64,000 bases of DNA from Chrysoperla carnea. Lineage: Eukaryota > Arthropoda > Insecta > Neuroptera > Chrysopidae. Below the pieces are notes generated by a model. The model was not told where the DNA came from. It made no database searches and saw only the letters and a program-made list of their open reading frames with translations. The DNA is taken from positions 33,748,140-33,812,139 of the forward strand of contig NC_058342.1 in assembly GCF_905475395.1 (NCBI RefSeq), given 5' to 3'. Shown here in pieces: positions 373 through 12,957 of the stretch. Both the position numbers and the translations under genes were made by a program. How positions within the stretch are numbered: position 1 is the first letter of the stretch; every line of letters begins with the position of its first letter.

Positions 373-726
373 CATTGACATTACATTACATAGACTAAGT
401 GCCGAACGATTTTAAGCGTGCCAACATCTGAGGTAATTTCTTAGGTCTAATAAATTGTAGATTCGTAAGAAAAATGTAAAACGAAACGTGATAAGTATTT
501 TTTTAAGCCAAAAAGCGAAAAAGTTCAGTGAAATCGCGATGTTTAATGTAAAACATTTTGTAATTTTGAAAATTTAACATTCATTGTATGTTTTTTGATT
601 AATTTTCCTATATTCTTTTGATAAATGTCTCTAGCTGACCTAAAAAATTACCTCAGTTGTTAGCAAGCTTCTCACTGTAGGGAAAGATAGTCGATGCTTA
701 GTCTATGTATAGCTATAAAGTCAATG
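373..726. mobile_element. Foldback element (MITE-like)
   Basis: Long inverted arms: CATTGACATTACATTACATA at 373 is matched in reverse complement by the segment ending CAATG at 726. A second inner pair is at about 419-447 and 637-665, around TCTGAGGTAAT / ATTACCTCAG. There is no coding capacity, so it is probably a non-autonomous DNA transposon. Target duplications could not be defined. Confidence 0.55.
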
Positions 727-1514
727 AGTTTTTTGCATTAATTCTATGACTTGAATTATACGCCTTGTAGATACGCCCCGAGCAACCCCTCAGTATTGTT
801 AGTAGTTGTTGTATTGTTGAAGGTGTCATCTGTTATTTTCACAAAAAAATCGAAATTGGTTTGGTTTAGTTCTACAATTATTATCTTATAATTTCACGAG
901 ATGGCGCTACTATACATACATTATTTGAAAAATATAAATTTTTAACCTTTTCCTAATGTCATTCTTATTAAAAGAATAGCTCTATGTGCCCACTTCCCCT
1001 ATACAGTGAATTCCTAAAGTTATTTAAATAAGAAGTGTTATTTGATACACATCCACTGACTTACTTTATTAAATTTAATAATTCGCGTTCGTTTGACGAA
1101 AGTGTGTTTTTACGAGGTGTAGCACTCATTTCGCAAATTAATTTTGGTAGACAATGTTCTTTTAACACTTCCAAAACTTCATATTTTGATTTAAAAAGGC
1201 CTGAAACAAAATAAATTACGTGTTTTTATTCAAATTAAATATAATCGCGCCAAAATAGCTTTTTTTTTTGGACGATTTTGTGATTGAGCCGACAAATCTA
1301 TTTCACTGACAAGACACTTGTAAATATGTTATCAAGTTTAAAAATATTTGGAATAAGTTACGATATGTAAAATTTAACCAAAAATTTGGTAAATTGATAT
1401 AGGTGTTCTTAAAATGACCTATTTAGTTCTCAGTTTCAGCACGATATCTCAAAAACGAAAAGAGATATCAAGGTGAAATTTTTATAGTGTGCTTAAGACG
1501 TAAAAAGTGAGTTT

Positions 1515-1801
1515 TAGTTCGTAAATGAGTAACATAGGTTATAACTTGACAATATGTAGACGAAAAGTAAGAATACAATTTTTCGATATCTGGACTAATT
1601 TTCAAAATATCGAAAATTGAAAATTTTATTGAATTATTTAGCTTTCGATATTTCGAAACAAGAAAGATATCGAAAAATGTTATTCTTATTTTTCATCTAT
1701 ATTCATGAAGTTATAACAAAATTTATCATCAAAGTTGAAAATACGGTACAAATATTTTCAACCCTAAATTTAAAATTGCGTTAGTGCTCGTACTACCTTA
1801 A
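1515..1801. mobile_element. TTAA-bounded hairpin repeat, partial copy
   Basis: This stretch carries the internal hairpin TTTTTCGATATCTGG ... TATCGAAAAA also found at 13040-13250 and 60370-60540, and ends with TACTACC followed by TTAA at 1798-1801. It is one terminus of the TTAA/GGTAGTA family. The left terminus is not clear. Confidence 0.5.
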
Positions 1802-1843
1802 ATGAGTTAACAACAGATGGCATTCGAAAAAACAAGATTATAC

Positions 1844-2132
1844 CTAATTTCTCTATCGTGTCCTTTTCAATTTGTTCATCTAAATTCAAAGCAACTGTTC
1901 CACCATGTAAACCAGGCACACGTGGTTCCACTAAACCTTTTTTCACTGGAAACTCTTTTTTATTAATCTGTTTTTTCTGATGTAAATTTTTACTCTTGTC
2001 ATATAAATCCGTTGTCTGATTAGAAAAATATTTTTGATATAACACATGCACAACACCAATATAATCCACGTTTAATAACAAAAATATCAACGCAATTATT
2101 GCAATACGTCCTAAAAATGCTATCACATCCAT
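1844..2132 (-). CDS. Candidate first exon of a small membrane-anchored protein, unknown family
   Basis: An ATG at 2130-2132 (minus) opens a frame with a strongly hydrophobic stretch at about residues 3-21 (IAFLGRIAIIALIFLLLNV), then a basic, hydrophilic region rich in Lys and Gln, then a less biased segment with a PRVPGLHGGTVALNLDEQ motif. This looks like an N-terminal signal anchor and stem, as in type II membrane proteins. A GTATAA donor follows at 1842-1843, giving 96 codons plus one base. Reading through the donor runs into a TTAA-type repeat terminus (1791-1801), which supports the exon ending there. No next exon was found. The function is unknown and the gene model is partial. Confidence 0.4.
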
Positions 2133-2171
2133 AATTTCCCAAACGAAAACTATTTCTGTTTTAATTGTCAA

Positions 2172-4429
2172 ATTATTTTTTTCATTTGTTACATTTTTTG
2201 CATCAAATCATGATTACTTTGATCGTATAACTGAAAACAAACAAAATCAAAGTGAACTTAGGTAATCATGTTATATTACTTAAATGAAAGTATTACTTTT
2301 GTTCAGTGAAAGTATTTCTTTCATTAATTTCACTTTCTTTCATGTGTACATAAAACACATACCTATTTTATTATGTAATTCAACACATAATATATTTATT
2401 CATTTACATATTTTTATAAATCCCGCTATTTTATTAAAAAGGGGAGAGGGAGATCAACGACCCTTATTTTAATTAAATGGCTAAATGGGCTATAGCTCCG
2501 TGCAGAGGCGGATTTACGCTTAGGGACGTGAGGTCTAAGTCTAGGGCGGTATCATTTGAGGAGCCCTGAACCTAATTAATTTTTCTCGGTCTTTGAAAAG
2601 TTGAAATTAATTAAATTTATCGTTTACTGTGAGGTTCAATTTTACTATTTTTAAAAGAATCACTTCCGCATAGAGCAAAAAGTGTGCCATATTAGACGGG
2701 TGGGTGCCATATCGAACGGGGTCTATAATCTAATGGCCCCGCGGGATGGACATTTTAAAGAGTTGACCAGAAAAATGTTTTAAAATAAGTACTCTTTCTA
2801 TGGGTGTATCGAGGATAGATCAAAACATGGCTGATGCCTCCCCCACTCCTAGACCTGGATTAAGTTGGCTTGAAGTATTACCTAATGGCAAAATAATATT
2901 GAATATATGAAGTTTTTGGTTACAAAAATATCAAGTGGGGCTTCCTTCTAGACCAAAAATTCTTGTTTTGCACTTTTCCTGCCCTGGGCTAAAACCTACA
3001 TACGATTATGAGTTGTCTTTAGCTAGTTTAGTATATTTTTTGAATATAAAACGAAATTCTTATTTAGTGTATGTAATGCCATCTTGGTATATAAAATGAA
3101 ACTAGAATGTTTTTAGTAGTTTTAATTTGGTGTATGTAGTGTCATCTATGAATATTATAGAAAAGTACCATTATATTTGTATTACACTGCCATCTATAAA
3201 TTTTAAGTGGAACTATCAATAATTTTCTGAATACAATGTTATCCATAAATGGTATAGGAAATTAATAGCATTATCTCCACGAAAGTGGGAAAAAATTTCC
3301 CAGTAAAAAGATGATAATTTCGAGCTCCTACTGAATATCTGCTTAAAATTTAATCCAAATAAAATTTTGAGAATGAATAATATAATTCGGCTCATAGTGA
3401 ATTTTTCTTTTTTTGTTTTAAATTTTATAGGATGGAACGAGGGCTGGTGTGAGGATTATTGGACTTGGAGGGGGAGTAAGTAAAACACTAAACAGATTTG
3501 TTGATAGTACATAGATGTCTTTAATAGGTCACTTGTTTTTAAAATTTTTTGTTTGGCTTGTGCTTACATATTAAATACAATAGATTTTCATATTTTCTTT
3601 TTTGTTATTTTTTTTTTTTACAAATAGTTTTTCATGTCTTGTATTCATATGCATCGTTTTTCCTTTATTTTCATACAAATTATAGACTATTCATTTTTAT
3701 AGTTTTTATTTTTATTTTAATACTTTGGCCAATATCATTTTTAAATTTTTTTTAATTTACTTTTATTTTAAACTAAGCAATTTTGCTGGCTACAACTTTT
3801 TAATTATGCCCTCACAAAATACTGATCATTCAAAACACAACGGTAAATAAACAAATGAAAAATTTTTAATTGAAAAAAAGAAAATATAATTCAACTAATT
3901 TTTTTTTATGCTATATTCCCCCTCTCCCAAAAGATTTGGTCTTATTTCCCCGATTCCCAGTTGACAGAGGAAATTCTTTTTGCTGGAGTCAGTTGCTGCT
4001 TCTTAAAAGTATTTAATAAGGGGTAAAGGGATGGGAGTTTTTTTTACCGTATGATTTTTGAAGGGTGGCCTAACCATAGAATAAAATCCTGTAGAACAGG
4101 CGGCCCTGTTTTTGTCTTTCTAATACTAATAATGAATCACAATTAAAGTATGTAATTAATAAGTATAATAAAGTAATTAATAAAATAATAAAAGTAAAAA
4201 TGATTGAAATGAATAATCATAGATGTCGTTACTCGATACTTAAGTAAGTAATCGATTGAATTATAAATGGTTGAATAATATGATAAAAATAATAAAATAA
4301 TGAAAAACAAATTGTTGGTTTTTAGAATTGTTTTTTGTATGTTTTGGTATGTTTGTTGTATGTTTGTATGTTTGTATGGTTGAGTTTTATTTCTCAGCTC
4401 AGATGTTCTTTTGTCATTTTTCTGCTTAT
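2172..4429. other. Non-coding stretch between the candidate membrane exon and arginine kinase
   Basis: No convincing exon. It contains a GAGGCGGATTTACGC motif at about 2506 that resembles hAT-type transposon ends, and a degenerate tandem repeat at about 3065-3260 in which each unit contains a variant of TGCCATCTAT, spaced roughly 50-65 bases apart. Long T-runs and A+T-rich ORFs of low complexity make up the rest. The last part (4386 onward) is the arginine kinase 3' untranslated region. Confidence 0.5.
4386..4391 (-). terminator. Poly(A) signal AATAAA of arginine kinase
   Basis: On the minus strand AATAAA lies about 40 bases after the arginine kinase stop codon (4430-4432), a plausible but unusually close polyadenylation signal. 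Cleavage was not observed; this is sequence match only. Confidence 0.4.
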
Positions 4430-7244
4430 TTACAATTCTTTTTCAATTTTGATGAGCTCAGTGATGCCATCGTACATTTCTTTAACGGCTTGGTATTCAG
4501 TCAAACCCATACGCCGTTTGTTTGAAATGTCGTAAATGCCACCTTCGGCTTCAGTGTGTTCACCACGTGTACCACGTACTTGTAAATTGAATTTACCAGC
4601 AATTTCGTCCAATTTTGCTTTGTTGGCAGCCAATTTTGGTACCTGTAACGAAATTATTTTTATGAATTTATCGAAAATTTACTTAGTTCAAGGTAGGGAA
4701 ATTAAAAAAAATCAGAGTCTATGTTTCGCAGTGCCCTCCTCACCAATTAGGAAGCCTAGGCGGTCGAAAAAGAACCTCCAAAAAAAGGAAACTGTACTTT
4801 TTTAATTTTCACTTTTAAAATTAAAATTTTAGATAAATGGCCCCCGTTAGGGCTAATGAAAATGGAAGTGCCAACCGTAGCGTAAGGACGGAAAAAAGGT
4901 AATCCCCCGCCACTGCTGAAGTGTGTCTCCACTAAAAATCCATGTCTATGAGCCACAACAATTGTAAATGTGGCACAGATGATTGATTGACGATTAAATT
5001 AGGAAGATATTGCCCTAAATCTCTCGAAATTCTCGAATCCAGATACTTTCTTAGAAAATATTAATCTGATAGTCAAATAAACTGAATTTTCATGACTTTT
5101 TGAATCCCAGTTAATGTAGAAAATCAAAAGCGGAGACAAGTTTTGGGTCCTTAACTCATACTCCATTTTAATGAAATTCTGACAGAAAATCTTCTCGACC
5201 AGGATGTATTTTTGCCTAAAGCTGATAGGTTATTCTGAAGATTGTGCAGATTCTTGAGAAATTTCTTACTCTGGGCCCAGTTATTTTACCATTCCTGGGT
5301 CTTACAGTTTCAGCCGATAAAGATATATCAGACGAGGACAAGGGTAAAGAAAACTAATAGGTTTAAATGTCATTTGTCAAAATACATACCTTAATGTGCA
5401 CTGAGGCACGGATTGTAGTTCCCAAGTTGGTTGGGCAGAAGGTGAGGAAACCTAATCTGTCATCATGTGAGAATGGAATACGTTTTTCGATGTCATTGAC
5501 AGCAGTTGTTAAACGGCGGAATACTTGGCCTAAATCACCACCCATTTGCATGGAGATGATACGTAAGTGATCTTCTTCGTTACACCAGACCAAGAAAGTT
5601 TTGTTCTCATTGTGGTAGATACCACGACCAGTTGGCCAGAAGCGGCATGCGTTTGCTGTTTGTAAGAAACGGTCACCTTCTTTGAACAAGAAATGATCGT
5701 CGATGAGTTTTTGTTGGACTTCTTTGGTCATACCAGCCAATGGATAGTATGTGCCTTTAAGTTCGCCTTCCAATCCAGACAAGGTGGATGAAACTTTGTC
5801 TTGCATCTCTTTGTATTGTTCCTCAGTTAAACATGGGTTGAATGGGTAGCCTTGGAGTGAGCGACCGCATCGGACACGGGTTGAGACAACATATTCACCA
5901 GCAGGGTCTAAGTTTCCAAGTGTATCACAGTCACCAAAATCTTTTGGTGGATGTTTGTCGGTTTTCTTGAATCCATTATGGTAGTCTTCGATGATTGGGT
6001 CGAATAAATCAGCGAATACTGTGTAAGCTTCAGCATCTGGGGCGTAGATACCTACTCCGGAATCATGGTTGGCCAAACCTATGTACAAAAAAAATAATAC
6101 ATTAAAAAAATTATATTTTTATACCCTGTATATATGAAATATATATATCAAGGTATACTAAGTTTAGTCCCAAGTTTGTAACGGTTAAAGATACTGATGT
6201 TACGAAATTTTTCAAAGCTTATTCTAGAGGATATACAAGTGGTCGAAGAAACGAAGGAATAAAGTCCGAAAAATTTGAGCAGTAAGTCGGCTTAAATGTG
6301 GTTTTCGGCATTCGATTCGTTAGAGCGTCAGGAAACCTAGTCTGATTTATAAGAAATTAAAAATATGCAATTAGCATAATTAATATGCATTTTATAATTG
6401 CATTTTAAATTGACCGTTAATATTAAATCCCAATCCCCCGAGTAACGACTGATAATATGACAAATTTCTCGAAAACTCCAGGCGGCGATAGGGATACCGT
6501 TAAACCAGGTACCTTCGAGACCAATTTTATCACGATATTCGTGTTCAGCGAAAGAGTGGAATATTTTCTGATTTTGCTTGAGAATTTAAAAAAAAAAGTC
6601 TTACCTGATTGGATACAGTCAAGAAGTGTTGAACCAAAAGATGTTTGTTTAGTTTTGAGTTGATCGAAAATTTCACGGGTCAAATATTTCTTCAACAAAG
6701 ATTTGGAATCGGATGCTTCCAATTTTTTGAATTCAGTTTCAAGTTTTTCAAGTACTTCTGCAGAAACCATGTTGCGTTTGGATTTGCTGTAAAATAAAAG
6801 AAAAATAAACTAAATTAGTAAAATTTTAACAAAATTTCGATTTTTTTGGACATTTTAAAATCGATTTCAATTTCAAAATCATGATTATTTCATGAGTTTA
6901 AGAATAATTTCATTTTTAAAAACTACAGCACTTGAGAAGTCAGGTCAATTCTCTTTATCTCAAATAATTTTATCACATTTTTGTATTTTTGTACTATTTA
7001 CCCAAACATTCTGTATTTTGGATAATTTTTATAAATTCGAATATCGATATCTTTTTATTTTATTTAGACGCACTGAGTTAATAAGACAATGCATTTTCCA
7101 CTACGCTATAGCTAAATGAGAAAAATTCGCGCGTTATGCAAATTGTGATCACATAAAAAGATAAAAAGGATACCTTTCATCGTTTGTCTCTGCATTCTCG
7201 ATAACTGTCGCATTTTTTTTATCTTTTGAAGCACAACCGCCCAT
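4430..7244 (-). CDS. ArgK: Arginine kinase, complete, 4 coding exons
   Basis: ATP:arginine phosphotransferase, which makes phosphoarginine as the arthropod energy buffer, normally cytosolic and abundant in muscle and nerve. Exons (minus): 7174-7244 (alternative N-terminus), 6605-6786, 5390-6078 and 4430-4642; all junctions are GT-AG and in phase. Starting at the Met at 6768-6770 the protein is 355 residues, the usual insect length. All key residues are present, each one position lower than in horseshoe-crab numbering: substrate loop SGVGIY at 62-67, phosphate-binding Arg123, Arg125, Arg228, Arg279 and Arg308, catalytic Glu224 (NEEDHLR), reactive Cys270 (CPTNLGT) and Glu313 (RGEHTE) in the mobile loop. 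Intron 2 holds a copy of a foldback repeat. Identification is near certain; the isoform structure is inferred. Confidence 0.97.
6205..6600. repeat. Foldback-repeat fragment in arginine kinase intron 2
   Basis: The segments CTCGAAAACTCCAGGCGGCG ... GTACCTTCGAGACCAATTTT ... TCGTGTTCAGCG (about 6465-6550) and GGTTTTCGGCATTCGATTCG (about 6300-6320) recur in the 14055-14911 element and near 58190-58510. They are pieces of one interspersed family and account for most of this intron. Confidence 0.65.
7174..7244 (-). CDS. ArgK: Alternative first coding exon of arginine kinase with an acylation-type N-terminus
   Basis: ATG at 7242-7244 encodes [20 protein letters not shown] and four further residues, ending in AG before a GTATCC donor (7172-7173). 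The next exon (6786) starts with C, giving AGC (Ser), and continues SKSKRN directly into the standard Met at 6770, with no stop. Gly2, Ser6 and Lys7 match the MGxxxSK N-myristoylation consensus, and Cys4 is placed for palmitoylation. The product would be the 355-residue kinase with a 29-residue N-terminal extension, probably tethered to a membrane. The standard cytosolic form would start at 6770 from this or another upstream exon. Exact splicing and frame support the exon; acylation is inferred. Confidence 0.75.
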
Positions 7245-10200
7245 TTAGCCACTTATAATTTAAATTTGAGTTATATACAAGAAAAAAGTTCTCCAAAAAA
7301 AATTTGCAACACAGCACAAATTTTATTTTGTACGTTTATTGTAAAAAACAATTATGAAAAACAAATTTTCACGTTCCAAAAAATGGAAAAAGGAAAAATT
7401 GTATAATATATATCACAGTTTGTTTGAAAAATTAAAAAAACGGAAAAAATTTGATTGTAGAAAAATTGTTGTATATTTATATTTGAAATATATCGAACAC
7501 TCGAAAAAGCACTTTAAATTGTTGAAAAAAATTGATTTATTACAAAATTTAAATCGAAATTCGTTGATATAAAATTTTCACTAATGTTTCTAAGAGTAAT
7601 CGGGGTTTGTGAATAAAATAATTCTAATTTTCACTATATACTATTAAAATCCAGTCACGCCTTCGTTATGCGCATGCGTTCAATATATCTACAAGCTACA
7701 AACGAGGAAAATACACAACCACTTTTCTAAGCTAGTAAAAAAAACCACCCTAATATTAAAATATTGACCCCCCTCTAAAATAAACTTGTTGGTATCACAA
7801 TTTGCATTTATAGAATAAATATATAAAAAAAAATTCGGTTTTTCAGCAGAGAACACGTGTAATGTAAATTTCCATTAATTTTCAAGTATTGTTTTACCTA
7901 ATTATCTGATAAGTCTTTTAAAATCAATTTCAAAATTTCACACAATCTTATCGGTTTCGAGTCATTTCGGAGTATTATTCATACATTTTTTTTTATCTAA
8001 TCATAGTTTTTAATTTTGTTTTTAGGCCACTTAGAAACATAATATATCACAATTAAAAAGTTTTCTGATTCAAGTTGCAAAGTGAGTACGTAGGGGCTTT
8101 AGATTTAATCAATTTTTTTAAGAATTGATTTTTTAAATTTTGATTAAAACATGAAATTTTAATTATTCGATACAACGATTAATTTTGTAACAGTTTGTAG
8201 TGGCCGCCGCCGAGCCGCATACTTAAATTTTAAACATTGTTTAATTAGTTCGATTATTTTGATAAAATATTCTGAATACAGGAAATTGGAAACGTTTGTT
8301 TACAAATATTTAATCAAATAGTTTATTAATTGAATTTCTGAATATAAATGTTTATAATTCATCGAATAATTATATTCCAAAATCAAATTTTAAATTCAAT
8401 TTTAATACCTTTGCCTTTACGCTTGTGTTCTAACGATTACGCTAATATTTTTCGAAATATAGTCTGAAATACTCTTAATAGAATATGGAATTTTTTTGTA
8501 TTTTTTTAGGTTCCAATTGTCTTGGAAATGGGATCTTTTTGGTTTTAATTTTTTGGATTTATCGTTTCACAAGATCCTTAAATAAATAATCAAATATCTG
8601 CACTAAAATTTCTCTATTTCTGTGCTTTTAAGGATAATTAATATCCAAACAAAAAAATCAGTCGATTTTACGGTTACTAGAGGTTGATTCGGTGCTTACT
8701 TTAACTAAAGTCATCCCTCTCCGAGGAAAAATGAAAGCCCGGTTGTCTAGGACACAAACCGGTTGAGTTGGATCTCCTCGATATAAGAAGTAATAAAAGT
8801 TTTTTCATCATTTTGATCAGATATTTAAATATAGAAGTCGTGTGATTATCTCATTTTTTTAATAACAATTTTATTGATTAGTAAAAATATTATTGATCAG
8901 TAATAAATAATTTAATAATATAATTATAATAATTTAAAATACAGCTATAGTTCGGTTATTATCATGTTTTATGCAAACGTCATTACATATATGTAAAATA
9001 AAAAGTATATCATTCAATAGAGATTATCATAAAAAACATGCATTGATTTGTAACACTTATGCAAACTACATTACATTTGTGCTATAAACCTTGCATAACA
9101 TACAAATATTATTAATTTTTTTAGAAGAAAACATTTGAATGAAACATGAGTTTACATTAATTTTAGGGATAAGTTATTTTGATCTCCGGTGCAGACTTTA
9201 TCTAAAGTAGTGTGCGTTGCGTAATAGACATGTTACGTGCTCCAAAATAAAACTGATACTGAGTTTTCAGTGAATATTCAAGGTATAAAAAATGTAAATA
9301 TTTATATTAATTATGATAGGTTTGTGTATCAAATAAAAAAATTTATGAGGTTTATGTCTTAGATAAATATATTTTATGAGGAATCAACACTGGATATATC
9401 AAGAAATTTAAGTATCGGTTGTAATCTTTTGTAATAGCTAGGGAATTTTTATGAAACTAATTCGATCGTCATCCTAAGATAAAATTTTCCAAAAAATATG
9501 AATAATAGAGGTCGCTAGATAAGGCTTTTCGACGTTTTGCAATATGAGAATTACTTACGGCGAACGTGGAGGAAATATCCCAAGCTTTTCAAGACGTTAT
9601 AATAGTAGTTATCCAAAAGGACTGATTTAATATTTGAAAATTAATTTAACATAAGAAAATTCGTGTTTTTGACCTAGGCTTGAAATTTTCTATCACGATA
9701 TTTTCGTGAAGAATAAAATATTTATATGATAGCAATTTATTTGAACTTGAGTAAAAATATTTAGTTCAAATCAGTTTAAAATTAATCGGAATTGAAACAA
9801 TTTAAATTTACTAATAAAATTCAATTAACTATTATCTATTTCATATAAACTGGAATGTTTATCCAAATGATTATTTTCGGTAGCGGATTTAAGTTACCGG
9901 CAAAGTAATAATTGCTCACTAGGGTTAGACTTTGCTGATGAACCCCCCGGGCCTATATCAAGCAGAATAAGCTCTCTTTTAATATTCAAGTTTTCGTAAA
10001 TTATCGTTTTCCAAATTTGAGTCGATGTTACTACAATTTATCATAAGACCATTTTTTTTCCAAGTCTCATATTTACAGAGTTCTAAAATACAAAATTTAT
10101 ACTGAAAACTTTTCGACTTTTTGTTTGATATGGAAAATTTATTCTTCTGAGATTCGTCGGGACTTGTATAATCAAAATACCTGCAGAAATAAAACTACGA

Positions 10201-10830
10201 TCTCAAAAAATTTTATCCACCATTGGAGACGAGTCTTGAAAATGACGGCTAATTTGCTAACCTGTTACTTATAGCCTGAAAGTGTTTTAAAATATTCGAT
10301 TCACATAATTTGAAATAATCAATTCGAATTATTAAATTAAATTCAATTGAAATGAAGTAATATGAAACGATTAAAAACAATAATTTTATTAATTATTTTG
10401 TTTCTTGTCTGAATATTTTAAGAATGTACATTTTTATACATAATTTTTGTTTTCGTAACCGGCACTAGCTTGTTCCCTTCGTGTTTGTCACTTTGATTAC
10501 AAACCTGTAAAAATGGTTGCATATACATTAAAAATTAATGTAACGACATTAAAGAAACCTTCAATCATAGTCCTTATACATGGTCGTACCAAGGGGAAGA
10601 AAGATTTGGATAACTGCTCCTGCCCTTTTCAGGACCTGGATTTGTCATTGATATAGTTAGCTAAGTGTTCGTTAGTGCCCAAACTTTTTGATCAAAAAAA
10701 TTTGTTCGTTCTATTTAGAGAAATGTTGCTAAGAGTTAATTTGGTGATAAGAGCACAAAAATCATCTTTCTCACAGGAAAAATGAGAGCTTACCAGTCAA
10801 AAACAAGCAAGAATAGGTTTGGGCTCTTTA
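7245..10830. other. Gene-free A+T-rich stretch upstream of arginine kinase
   Basis: This should include the arginine kinase promoter and any non-coding first exons, but no single element can be assigned. No exon with balanced amino-acid composition was seen on either strand. A small G+C-richer patch occurs at 8685-8790 and another at 9185-9240; neither encodes a recognisable protein. Confidence 0.4.
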
Positions 10831-10834
10831 TTAT

Positions 10835-11300
10835 ACCATGTATATGAAATACACCAAGGTATACTAAGTTTAGTCCCAAGTTAGGTGTTCATAAAATCAC
10901 CTAATTAGTCCATTTCCGATTGTCTGTCTGTCTATCTGTCGTCTGTTTGTCGTCTGTTTGTCGTCTGTCTGTCCGTCTGTCATCACGATTACTCAAAACC
11001 GAAAAGATATATCAAGCTGAAATTTTATAGCGTGCTTAGGACGTAAAAAGTGAGGTCGAGTTCGTAAATGAGGTCAACATAGGTCAATTGAGTCTTGGGT
11101 TCGTAGTACCCATCTTGTAAACCGTTAGAGATAAAACAAAAGTTTAAATGTAAAAAATGTTTCTTATAGAAAAATAAACAACTTTTGTTTGAAACTGTTT
11201 ACCCGTGAGAGCGCAAATTGTATAGTATGTATTATATGGGAATATCAGTTATACCAGTTATGTTACAGAGTAATCAACACTGTCTGTACATGGTATTTCA
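10835..11300 (+). repeat. Interspersed repeat with AAGTTTAGTCCCAAG core and TCTG microsatellite
   Basis: Begins near TATACCATG and contains AGTTTAGTCCCAAG, a (TCTG)n/TCGTCTGTTTG microsatellite at about 10917-10985, ACCGAAAAGATATATCAAGC and GACGTAAAAAGTGAGGTCGA. Related copies occur at about 1430-1550, 6140-6200, 20215-20340 (reverse), 22080-22500 and 49125-49290. There is no coding capacity; it is probably a non-autonomous transposon family. Confidence 0.7.
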
Positions 11301-12957
11301 ACAATTTACTCAGTCAATTGTTTGTTTTCACTTGTTTTTTTCTGTAATCAATTTTTCTTACCTTTGCATAAAATATATATTTTATTTATAGGCATCTGAT
11401 TTAACATAAATGTTATGTATATTGCATATATTTAAACAAATATTTATTATGTACATGAGAAAATGTTGATGAAAAATGATTAAATATAAGAAAATCATGC
11501 GCAACGAATGTTTTTAACAAATATTTATTAGAAACAAATATTAAATCTCTTTTGTGCTAAGTAAAAATTATTTACAAACAGAGATTTGTCATCGTTTTTT
11601 ATGATTTTTATTTAACTATAAAATTTACGAGACATCATCTCAAGGATTTTTCATATTTTCTTGTTAATTTAATTTTTTAACCGCTAACTATCACGTACAC
11701 ATACTTAATACTAATCAATACTCAAAATAAACGGAAAAGTTAAAACAAAAAAATTGGAAAATTTACAGGGTGTATCATAAAAAGCGTGCAAAGTAAGTAG
11801 TTAGTATTTTACACAGTTAAAATTAACCAAAATCGAATCTTCCCTACTATCGTATGAGGAATAACATTTACAACTTTGTTGAGGAAAGGGAAAAAGTTAA
11901 TTTATGCTATTTCTGAATGGCAATTTCTCTTGGATTTGATTGAATTTATTGACCTTAAAACTAATAAAAGATTCAATTAGGCATCCGATTTTTGGAATAT
12001 TTTAACAAAATCCTAATTTTACTAAGAAAAAATGATCAAAACATCTTCGCTATTTATGAAACCCCCTGTGATTTTTTGGGTAGCAAAATTTTACATCAAA
12101 ATATTTTTCAATAACTTTTATACGTACATTTTTGAGTACGATCGTATAATTGCGTAATCGATAACGATAATCGTTCGTTTTAAGAATTGATTCAGCATTT
12201 AAGTCTGTAAAAAAGTTCAATACATTATTAGTCTCTCTGAGTGTCTCGTAATTTAAAACTTTAACCGCAACCTAAGAATGTTTTTTTTTTTTATTGTCTA
12301 GCGATTGTATTGAAATCTTATAGTTGTTTGTAAGGTTTTGCACCAATTTCAAAAATTGATGTCATTTGTGTCAATATGATTATGATTCATATACTAAAAT
12401 TAATGTACCGTTTAACGTAGTTTACTATATTCATAAAACGCAATGAAGCCGAAAAATTATTCAATAATTTTTAGTCCTCAAAATGAAGATCGATTTCGAT
12501 GAAATTTTTTAAAACTATTAACGTAAAAAAATTTTGAGTTATACTCAATTGGTATGATTTTAAATAACTGGCAATTTTTCTTTAAAAACCCCATAAAATC
12601 CATGCAATTTTTGAAAACTTTAGGGCGCTTTTGAAGCCAGTCTGAAGGATACCTTGAAAATCAGAAAGAATTAATTTTAACTTTTATTATCATTTACAGT
12701 CAATCATGTTTTGCGTATCCAATTTGACAAACACAATATTGACAAAAAGCTAGATTAACGCACTACCTTAAACTGTACGTTAAATGATAAATGTCATGGA
12801 AAATGAGAGTTAAAACTCTTAGGCAATTATTACTTTTTGTTTAGGTACTTTTAATCATGTATACGATATTTATTTACATCATGGTCTCTCGATTATAATT
12901 GATGATTTTTAATATGATACATACAGCGTAAACTAAATATTTACAAAATATCTTGTC
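11301..12957. other. Gene-free stretch
   Basis: No supported exon. An ACAGGGTGT motif at about 11766 resembles ends of insect TIR elements, and a TACTACC/TTAA-type terminus (CACTACCTTAA) lies at 12761-12771. The rest is A+T-rich unique-looking DNA. Confidence 0.4.

Follow-up and report, generated by a model that had tools for sequence, protein, structure and literature searches.

A candidate alternative first exon with a predicted acylated N terminus in an arginine kinase gene of Chrysoperla carnea

The site of a phosphagen kinase determines which ATPases it serves. In sea urchin sperm, the flagellar creatine kinase, an echinoderm enzyme with three fused catalytic domains that is encoded by a separate gene, has been reported to be N-myristoylated and ties ATP regeneration to the flagellum. 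Among arginine kinases, an excerpt of PMC3679164 describes a flagellar enzyme of Trypanosoma brucei with a 22-residue N-terminal extension that is sufficient for flagellar targeting. This protein, named TbAK1 there, is the AK3 of PMC4517888, whose available sections note Gly2 and several lysines in the extension and propose a likeness to the calflagins, which are myristoylated and palmitoylated. Drosophila melanogaster ArgK1 (CG4929) has alternative first coding exons, and the exon encoding MFALWYLTFAVDEIRK is sufficient for mitochondrial targeting of a reporter, according to part of PMC13215054. We compare these systems with an arginine kinase gene of the insect Chrysoperla carnea.

Gene structure and the N-terminal extension

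The window, the whole stretch of 64,000 nucleotides that was analyzed (C6:33748140-33812139; the genome spans 559 Mb in 337 contigs, six of which sum to ~527 Mb), contains a complete arginine kinase gene on the minus strand. TTAGG arrays are also present; like the arginine kinase gene, they agree with an insect source without being proof of one. Its spliced coding sequence (7244-7174, 6786-6605, 6078-5390, and 4642-4430) comprises 1155 nt and encodes 384 amino acids, with a single, terminal stop codon. The three introns (387, 526, and 747 bases) are all of the GT-AG type. The coding part of exon 1 (7174-7244, minus strand), a predicted alternative first exon, specifies 23 residues and contributes two bases to the codon at the junction, is open throughout, and ends in AG at the donor GT (AG|GT). 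Intron 1 (6787-7173), as read from its splice sites, runs from a weak donor, GTATCC, to TTACAG. Exon 2 (6605-6786) completes the junction serine codon (AG|C across the 7174-6786 join), continues with the basic stretch KSKRN, and arrives with zero stops at the standard Met (ATG at 6770), where the kinase starts. By translation, exon 3 (5390-6078) encodes the bulk of the kinase and exon 4 (4430-4642) its C terminus up to the stop codon. A preliminary description of this DNA had proposed an exon at 7174-7244 joined openly and in exact phase to arginine kinase, and the translation and splice junction bear this out; the MGxxxSK motif and Cys4 that it had read at the N terminus are likewise present in the translation of exon 1.

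Both phosphagen kinase domains are present (PF00217, E = 1.5e-80; PF02807, E = 4.3e-35), and CPTNLGT in exon 3 satisfies the active-site signature CP-x(0,1)-[ST]-N-[ILV]-G-T as quoted in an extract of PMC3679164. The nearest solved single-domain relatives in the PDB are named arginine kinases, and their alignment runs from the standard Met onward. The best PDB stretch starts at query position 28 at the least in all 49 of 49 matched sequences, and the extension is covered by none. Chain 4bhl_A, which we take to be a shrimp enzyme, is an ordinary arginine kinase without the extension, and its residues 1-356 align with residues 30-384 of the long form.

The long form adds a 29-residue N-terminal extension with 6 K/R and 5 D/E, which is expected to be flexible. 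N-myristoyltransferase prefers Gly2, small residues at positions 3 and 5, Ser6, and Lys7, and the PROSITE-like N-myristoylation pattern is G-{EDRKHPFYW}-x-x-[STAGCN]-{P}. The MGGCASK start of exon 1 fits this pattern and has K7 in addition, which makes N-myristoylation at Gly2 plausible as a motif-level prediction. Near Gly2 lies Cys4, a predicted palmitoylation site of a type for which there is no strict consensus, and the lysines of exon 1 are K7, K9, and K10. The exon, its frame, its motif, and the AUG arrangement described below are established from the sequence.

We consider it probable that the gene uses this alternative first exon to make an arginine kinase that is N-myristoylated, probably also palmitoylated, and tethered to a membrane. 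Exon use, acylation, location, and role are what we infer here, and the steps would be as follows. The short upstream coding exon (7244-7174) would be spliced in frame onto the arginine kinase body. Met1 would be removed, N-myristoyltransferase would acylate Gly2, and palmitoylation of Cys4 by a DHHC enzyme would follow; K7, K9, and K10 together with the KSKR run (K25-K27-R28) may aid binding to acidic lipids. The product would be a catalytically ordinary arginine kinase on a membrane, where ATP from phosphoarginine would be formed beside membrane ATPases. The preliminary description suggested a flagellum, a photoreceptor, or the plasma membrane as a possible site. The cytosolic form would begin at the Met encoded at 6770 and would come from another first exon. 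If this is true, the lipid-anchor exon would offer a genetic handle: loss or mutation of one exon would remove the membrane-bound pool alone.

Start codons and the putative leader

A is the preferred base at position -3 of a start codon. The ATG of the MGGC start has T there (GGCTAAATGG), and the context of the standard Met (CGCAACATGG) is better. Such contexts would be expected if exon 1 were an ordinary 5' leader exon, with leaky scanning to the standard Met and a long form that is scarce or absent, and this explanation also agrees with the position of exon 1 merely ~0.4 kb 5' of exon 2 and with a search that found no other first exon. However, ribosomes that skipped the MGGC start would reach three AUGs, all out of frame, before the standard Met (coding sequence offsets 31, 49, and 64). 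Each has A at -3, and the three share one frame whose stop at offset 163 lies 76 bases past the standard AUG (offset 87). An ordinary leader exon would, moreover, match the acylation consensus only by accident. We regard this explanation as unlikely.

The three out-of-frame AUGs are a new point, absent from the preliminary description. Since all three come ahead of the standard Met in a frame that closes past it, translation of exon-1 mRNAs should yield chiefly the long form, and a different first exon would be required for the cytosolic form. Exon 1, if it is used, thus likely serves to encode the extension. Among the upstream ATGs with ATG-free leaders of at least 250 bases that we surveyed, none was convincing as the first exon of the cytosolic form; the cytosolic enzyme may alternatively come from a paralog. 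We suggest tentatively that exon-1 mRNA could yield the membrane-anchored enzyme only, in which case the tethered arginine kinase would be a major product under the control of its promoter and the cytosolic enzyme would come from another promoter or a paralog. If so, the main gene would encode a dedicated equivalent, in an animal, of the trypanosome's flagellar kinase.

The ATG-free stretch before exon 1 looks like a 5' untranslated leader. This putative leader (7245-7672, minus strand) is AT-rich, and its 428 ATG-free bases separate the MGGC ATG from the preceding one at 7675, a distance of 431. Gaps of at least 431 precede 4 of 2035 window ATGs, exon 1 included (3/1003 on the minus strand and 1/1032 on the plus strand), and 5 of 6854 ATGs in control DNA, which consisted of 20 stretches of 10 kb from chosen places on C1-C4 and C6 of the one genome (on each of the 40 control strands the initial ATG had no measurable gap and was counted as a miss). 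From dinucleotide content, 5.9 to 7.3 ATGs would be expected in the ATG-free stretch (Poisson P0 of 0.0007 to 0.003). GC content was 0.229 in the leader, 0.394 in exon 1, 0.24 in intron 1, and 0.341 to 0.443 in exons 2 to 4. This step in GC content is modest evidence, since 71-nt stretches equally rich in GC are not rare in the window: they occupy 17.7% of positions in the whole window, 9.9% in 7245-12000, and 0.3% in intron 1.

TATA-like words are found at 7640 and 7277 and an MEF2-like word at 7759, as consensus matches only. The scan for core-promoter words gave many matches in this AT-rich DNA and was uninformative, as was a bacterial promoter scan, which is inapplicable to an animal gene. 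Intron 1 contains, on the minus strand, an Inr-like TCAGTG-type word at 7119, a TATCGATA word at 7049, and a TATA-like word at 7033, again as consensus matches only. It is conceivable that these words (7033-7119) represent an internal promoter.

Rarity of the exon and arginine kinase paralogs

The tests of chance were post hoc, having been run after the feature had been chosen, and the strength of the case is therefore somewhat overstated. A myristoylation-like start follows 7 of the 2037 ATGs on both strands of the window. Two of the 2037 also have K/R at position 7, and one, exon 1, has Cys at positions 3 to 6 as well. Exon 1 is again the sole ATG (1/2037) when an in-phase donor is included, defined as one that lies 30 to 300 bases from the ATG and scores at least as high as the exon 1 donor. 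The control counts for these four successive criteria were 21, 4, 2, and 0 of 6854 ATGs, and control rates of 2/6854 and 201/6854, assumed to be independent, give about 1e-5 per ATG. On the minus strand between 6787 and 27000, exon 1 alone among 311 ATGs has a myristoylation-like start. The exon 1 sequence has one match in the 559-Mb genome, namely itself, and thus no detected repeat. ATGGGNGGNTGYGC, corresponding to MGGCA, occurs at 21 genome sites; it continues to MGGCASK at exon 1 only and not at the 20 others. Exact phase by itself, with odds of about 1 in 3, is weak evidence and counts for little. Taken as a whole, chance is a hard account of exon 1 to sustain. The suggestion in the preliminary description that the exon is in use is supported by these statistics and by the ATG-free leader, and modestly by GC content; use itself is still inferred from the sequence.

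Exon 1 could be used and coding with acylation absent or partial, or with another role, such as that of a simple spacer or of a different targeting signal. The acylation call relies on a sequence motif, and palmitoylation at Cys4 has no strict consensus to answer to, which leaves room for such an outcome. Against it, Gly2, the small residues at 3 and 5, Ser6, and Lys7 suit the preferences of N-myristoyltransferase, and the pattern with K/R7 occurs at just 2/2037 window and 4/6854 control ATGs. The published alternative first exon of Drosophila, which targets mitochondria in the part of PMC13215054 available, is a precedent for a different targeting signal, and on balance we consider a coding exon without full acylation to be improbable.

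The donor of exon 1 (AAG|GTATCC) is weak. Its score is 0.6, versus 7.6 for exon 2 and 5.2 for exon 3, and 7.6% of the 6085 GTs in the window score at least as high. The consensus bases usual at +4 to +6 are absent from this donor. That exon 1 is a chance open reading frame never joined to arginine kinase would fit the weak donor, the reliance on the sequence of one genome, and the frequency of ATGs that start an open frame of 23 or more codons (1459/6854 in the control) or are followed by in-phase donors (54/2037 in the window), but the acylation motif, the Cys, the in-phase donor, the ATG-free leader, and the place just 5' of the acceptor are jointly rare, and this explanation is very improbable.

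In the upstream DNA scanned for the two closest paralogs (C3:12.41 Mb and C1:44.66 Mb), a myristoylation-like start was found at 0 of 148 and 0 of 100 ATGs, respectively; the paralogs thus provide no within-genome support for exon 1. A search of the kinase body against viral_contigs and genome_contigs, in which insect DNA would be only stray, found no contig encoding a relative.

The C3 paralog is a second arginine kinase copy (L015, G000:C3:12409800-12419700, at about 64-1740 on the minus strand) that is 74 to 76% identical to the window gene in matched stretches. Its equivalents of exons 2 and 3 are fused, lacking the window intron at 6604-6079, and its possible start, MCTIAPRGKSSKMN, has no Gly2. 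The C1 paralog, a third arginine kinase gene (L016, G000:C1:44656800-44666700, at about 659-3531 on the minus strand), is more diverged, with 41 to 44% identity in matched stretches and a possible start at MNTFFGSSDECKCLDLK. A distant relative with 30% identity to the window gene is a diverged arginine-kinase-like frame of 477 amino acids (L017, G000:C3:58915500-58925400, 1744-3174 on the minus strand; PF00217, E = 1.7e-28; PF02807, E = 4.3e-9). Two ankyrin-repeat frames (5107-5430 and 7841-8053) lie on the same strand less than 5 kb from it, and the three frames are possibly one ankyrin plus phosphagen-kinase-like gene.

Comparison with known phosphagen kinases

The predicted long form resembles the sea urchin flagellar creatine kinase in that both are phosphagen kinases and N-myristoylation has been reported for the latter. 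In the open-access literature, as far as the retrieved portions of its texts extend, no insect arginine kinase N terminus of the acylation type was found, the trypanosome enzyme being the only case. MGGCASK had no match in that literature, nor did MGGC alongside arginine kinase, and the myristoylation site that appears in an excerpt of PMC7747377 belongs to another protein, NULLO. It would not surprise us if some insects already had a similar predicted isoform in databases that has gone unremarked.

The predicted arrangement is like that of Drosophila ArgK1 as described in the accessible text: one gene in which an alternative first coding exon is joined to a common catalytic part, with the N-terminal exon of ArgK1 setting location. 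Unlike exon 1 of the window gene, the ArgK1 peptide MFALWYLTFAVDEIRK is mitochondrial and, as given in that text, lacks the Gly2/Cys4 motif. A Drosophila-like mitochondrial first exon was also sought in the window and rejected; the best ungapped score of MFALWYLTFAVDEIRK was 27, versus 23 to 31 for five shuffles.

With the T. brucei enzyme, as far as its description in the excerpts goes, the long form shares a short extension (22 residues in T. brucei and 29 in the window gene), Gly2, lysines, and an ordinary kinase body. The T. brucei protein is encoded by a separate protist gene copy and has an extra C-terminal insertion, whereas the extension of the window gene is encoded by a predicted alternative exon. 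The preliminary description had treated the trypanosome enzyme as an acylated precedent. The precedent holds in that acylation was proposed from sequence similarity, but the part of PMC4517888 available contains no demonstration of it; flagellar location was demonstrated for the T. brucei enzyme, whereas a membrane location is predicted for the long form. If the predicted long form is made, it would be an independent instance of what has been suggested for the flagella of trypanosomes. Exon 1 probably joins two known designs, the alternative exon of the fly type and an acylation signal such as that proposed for the trypanosome.
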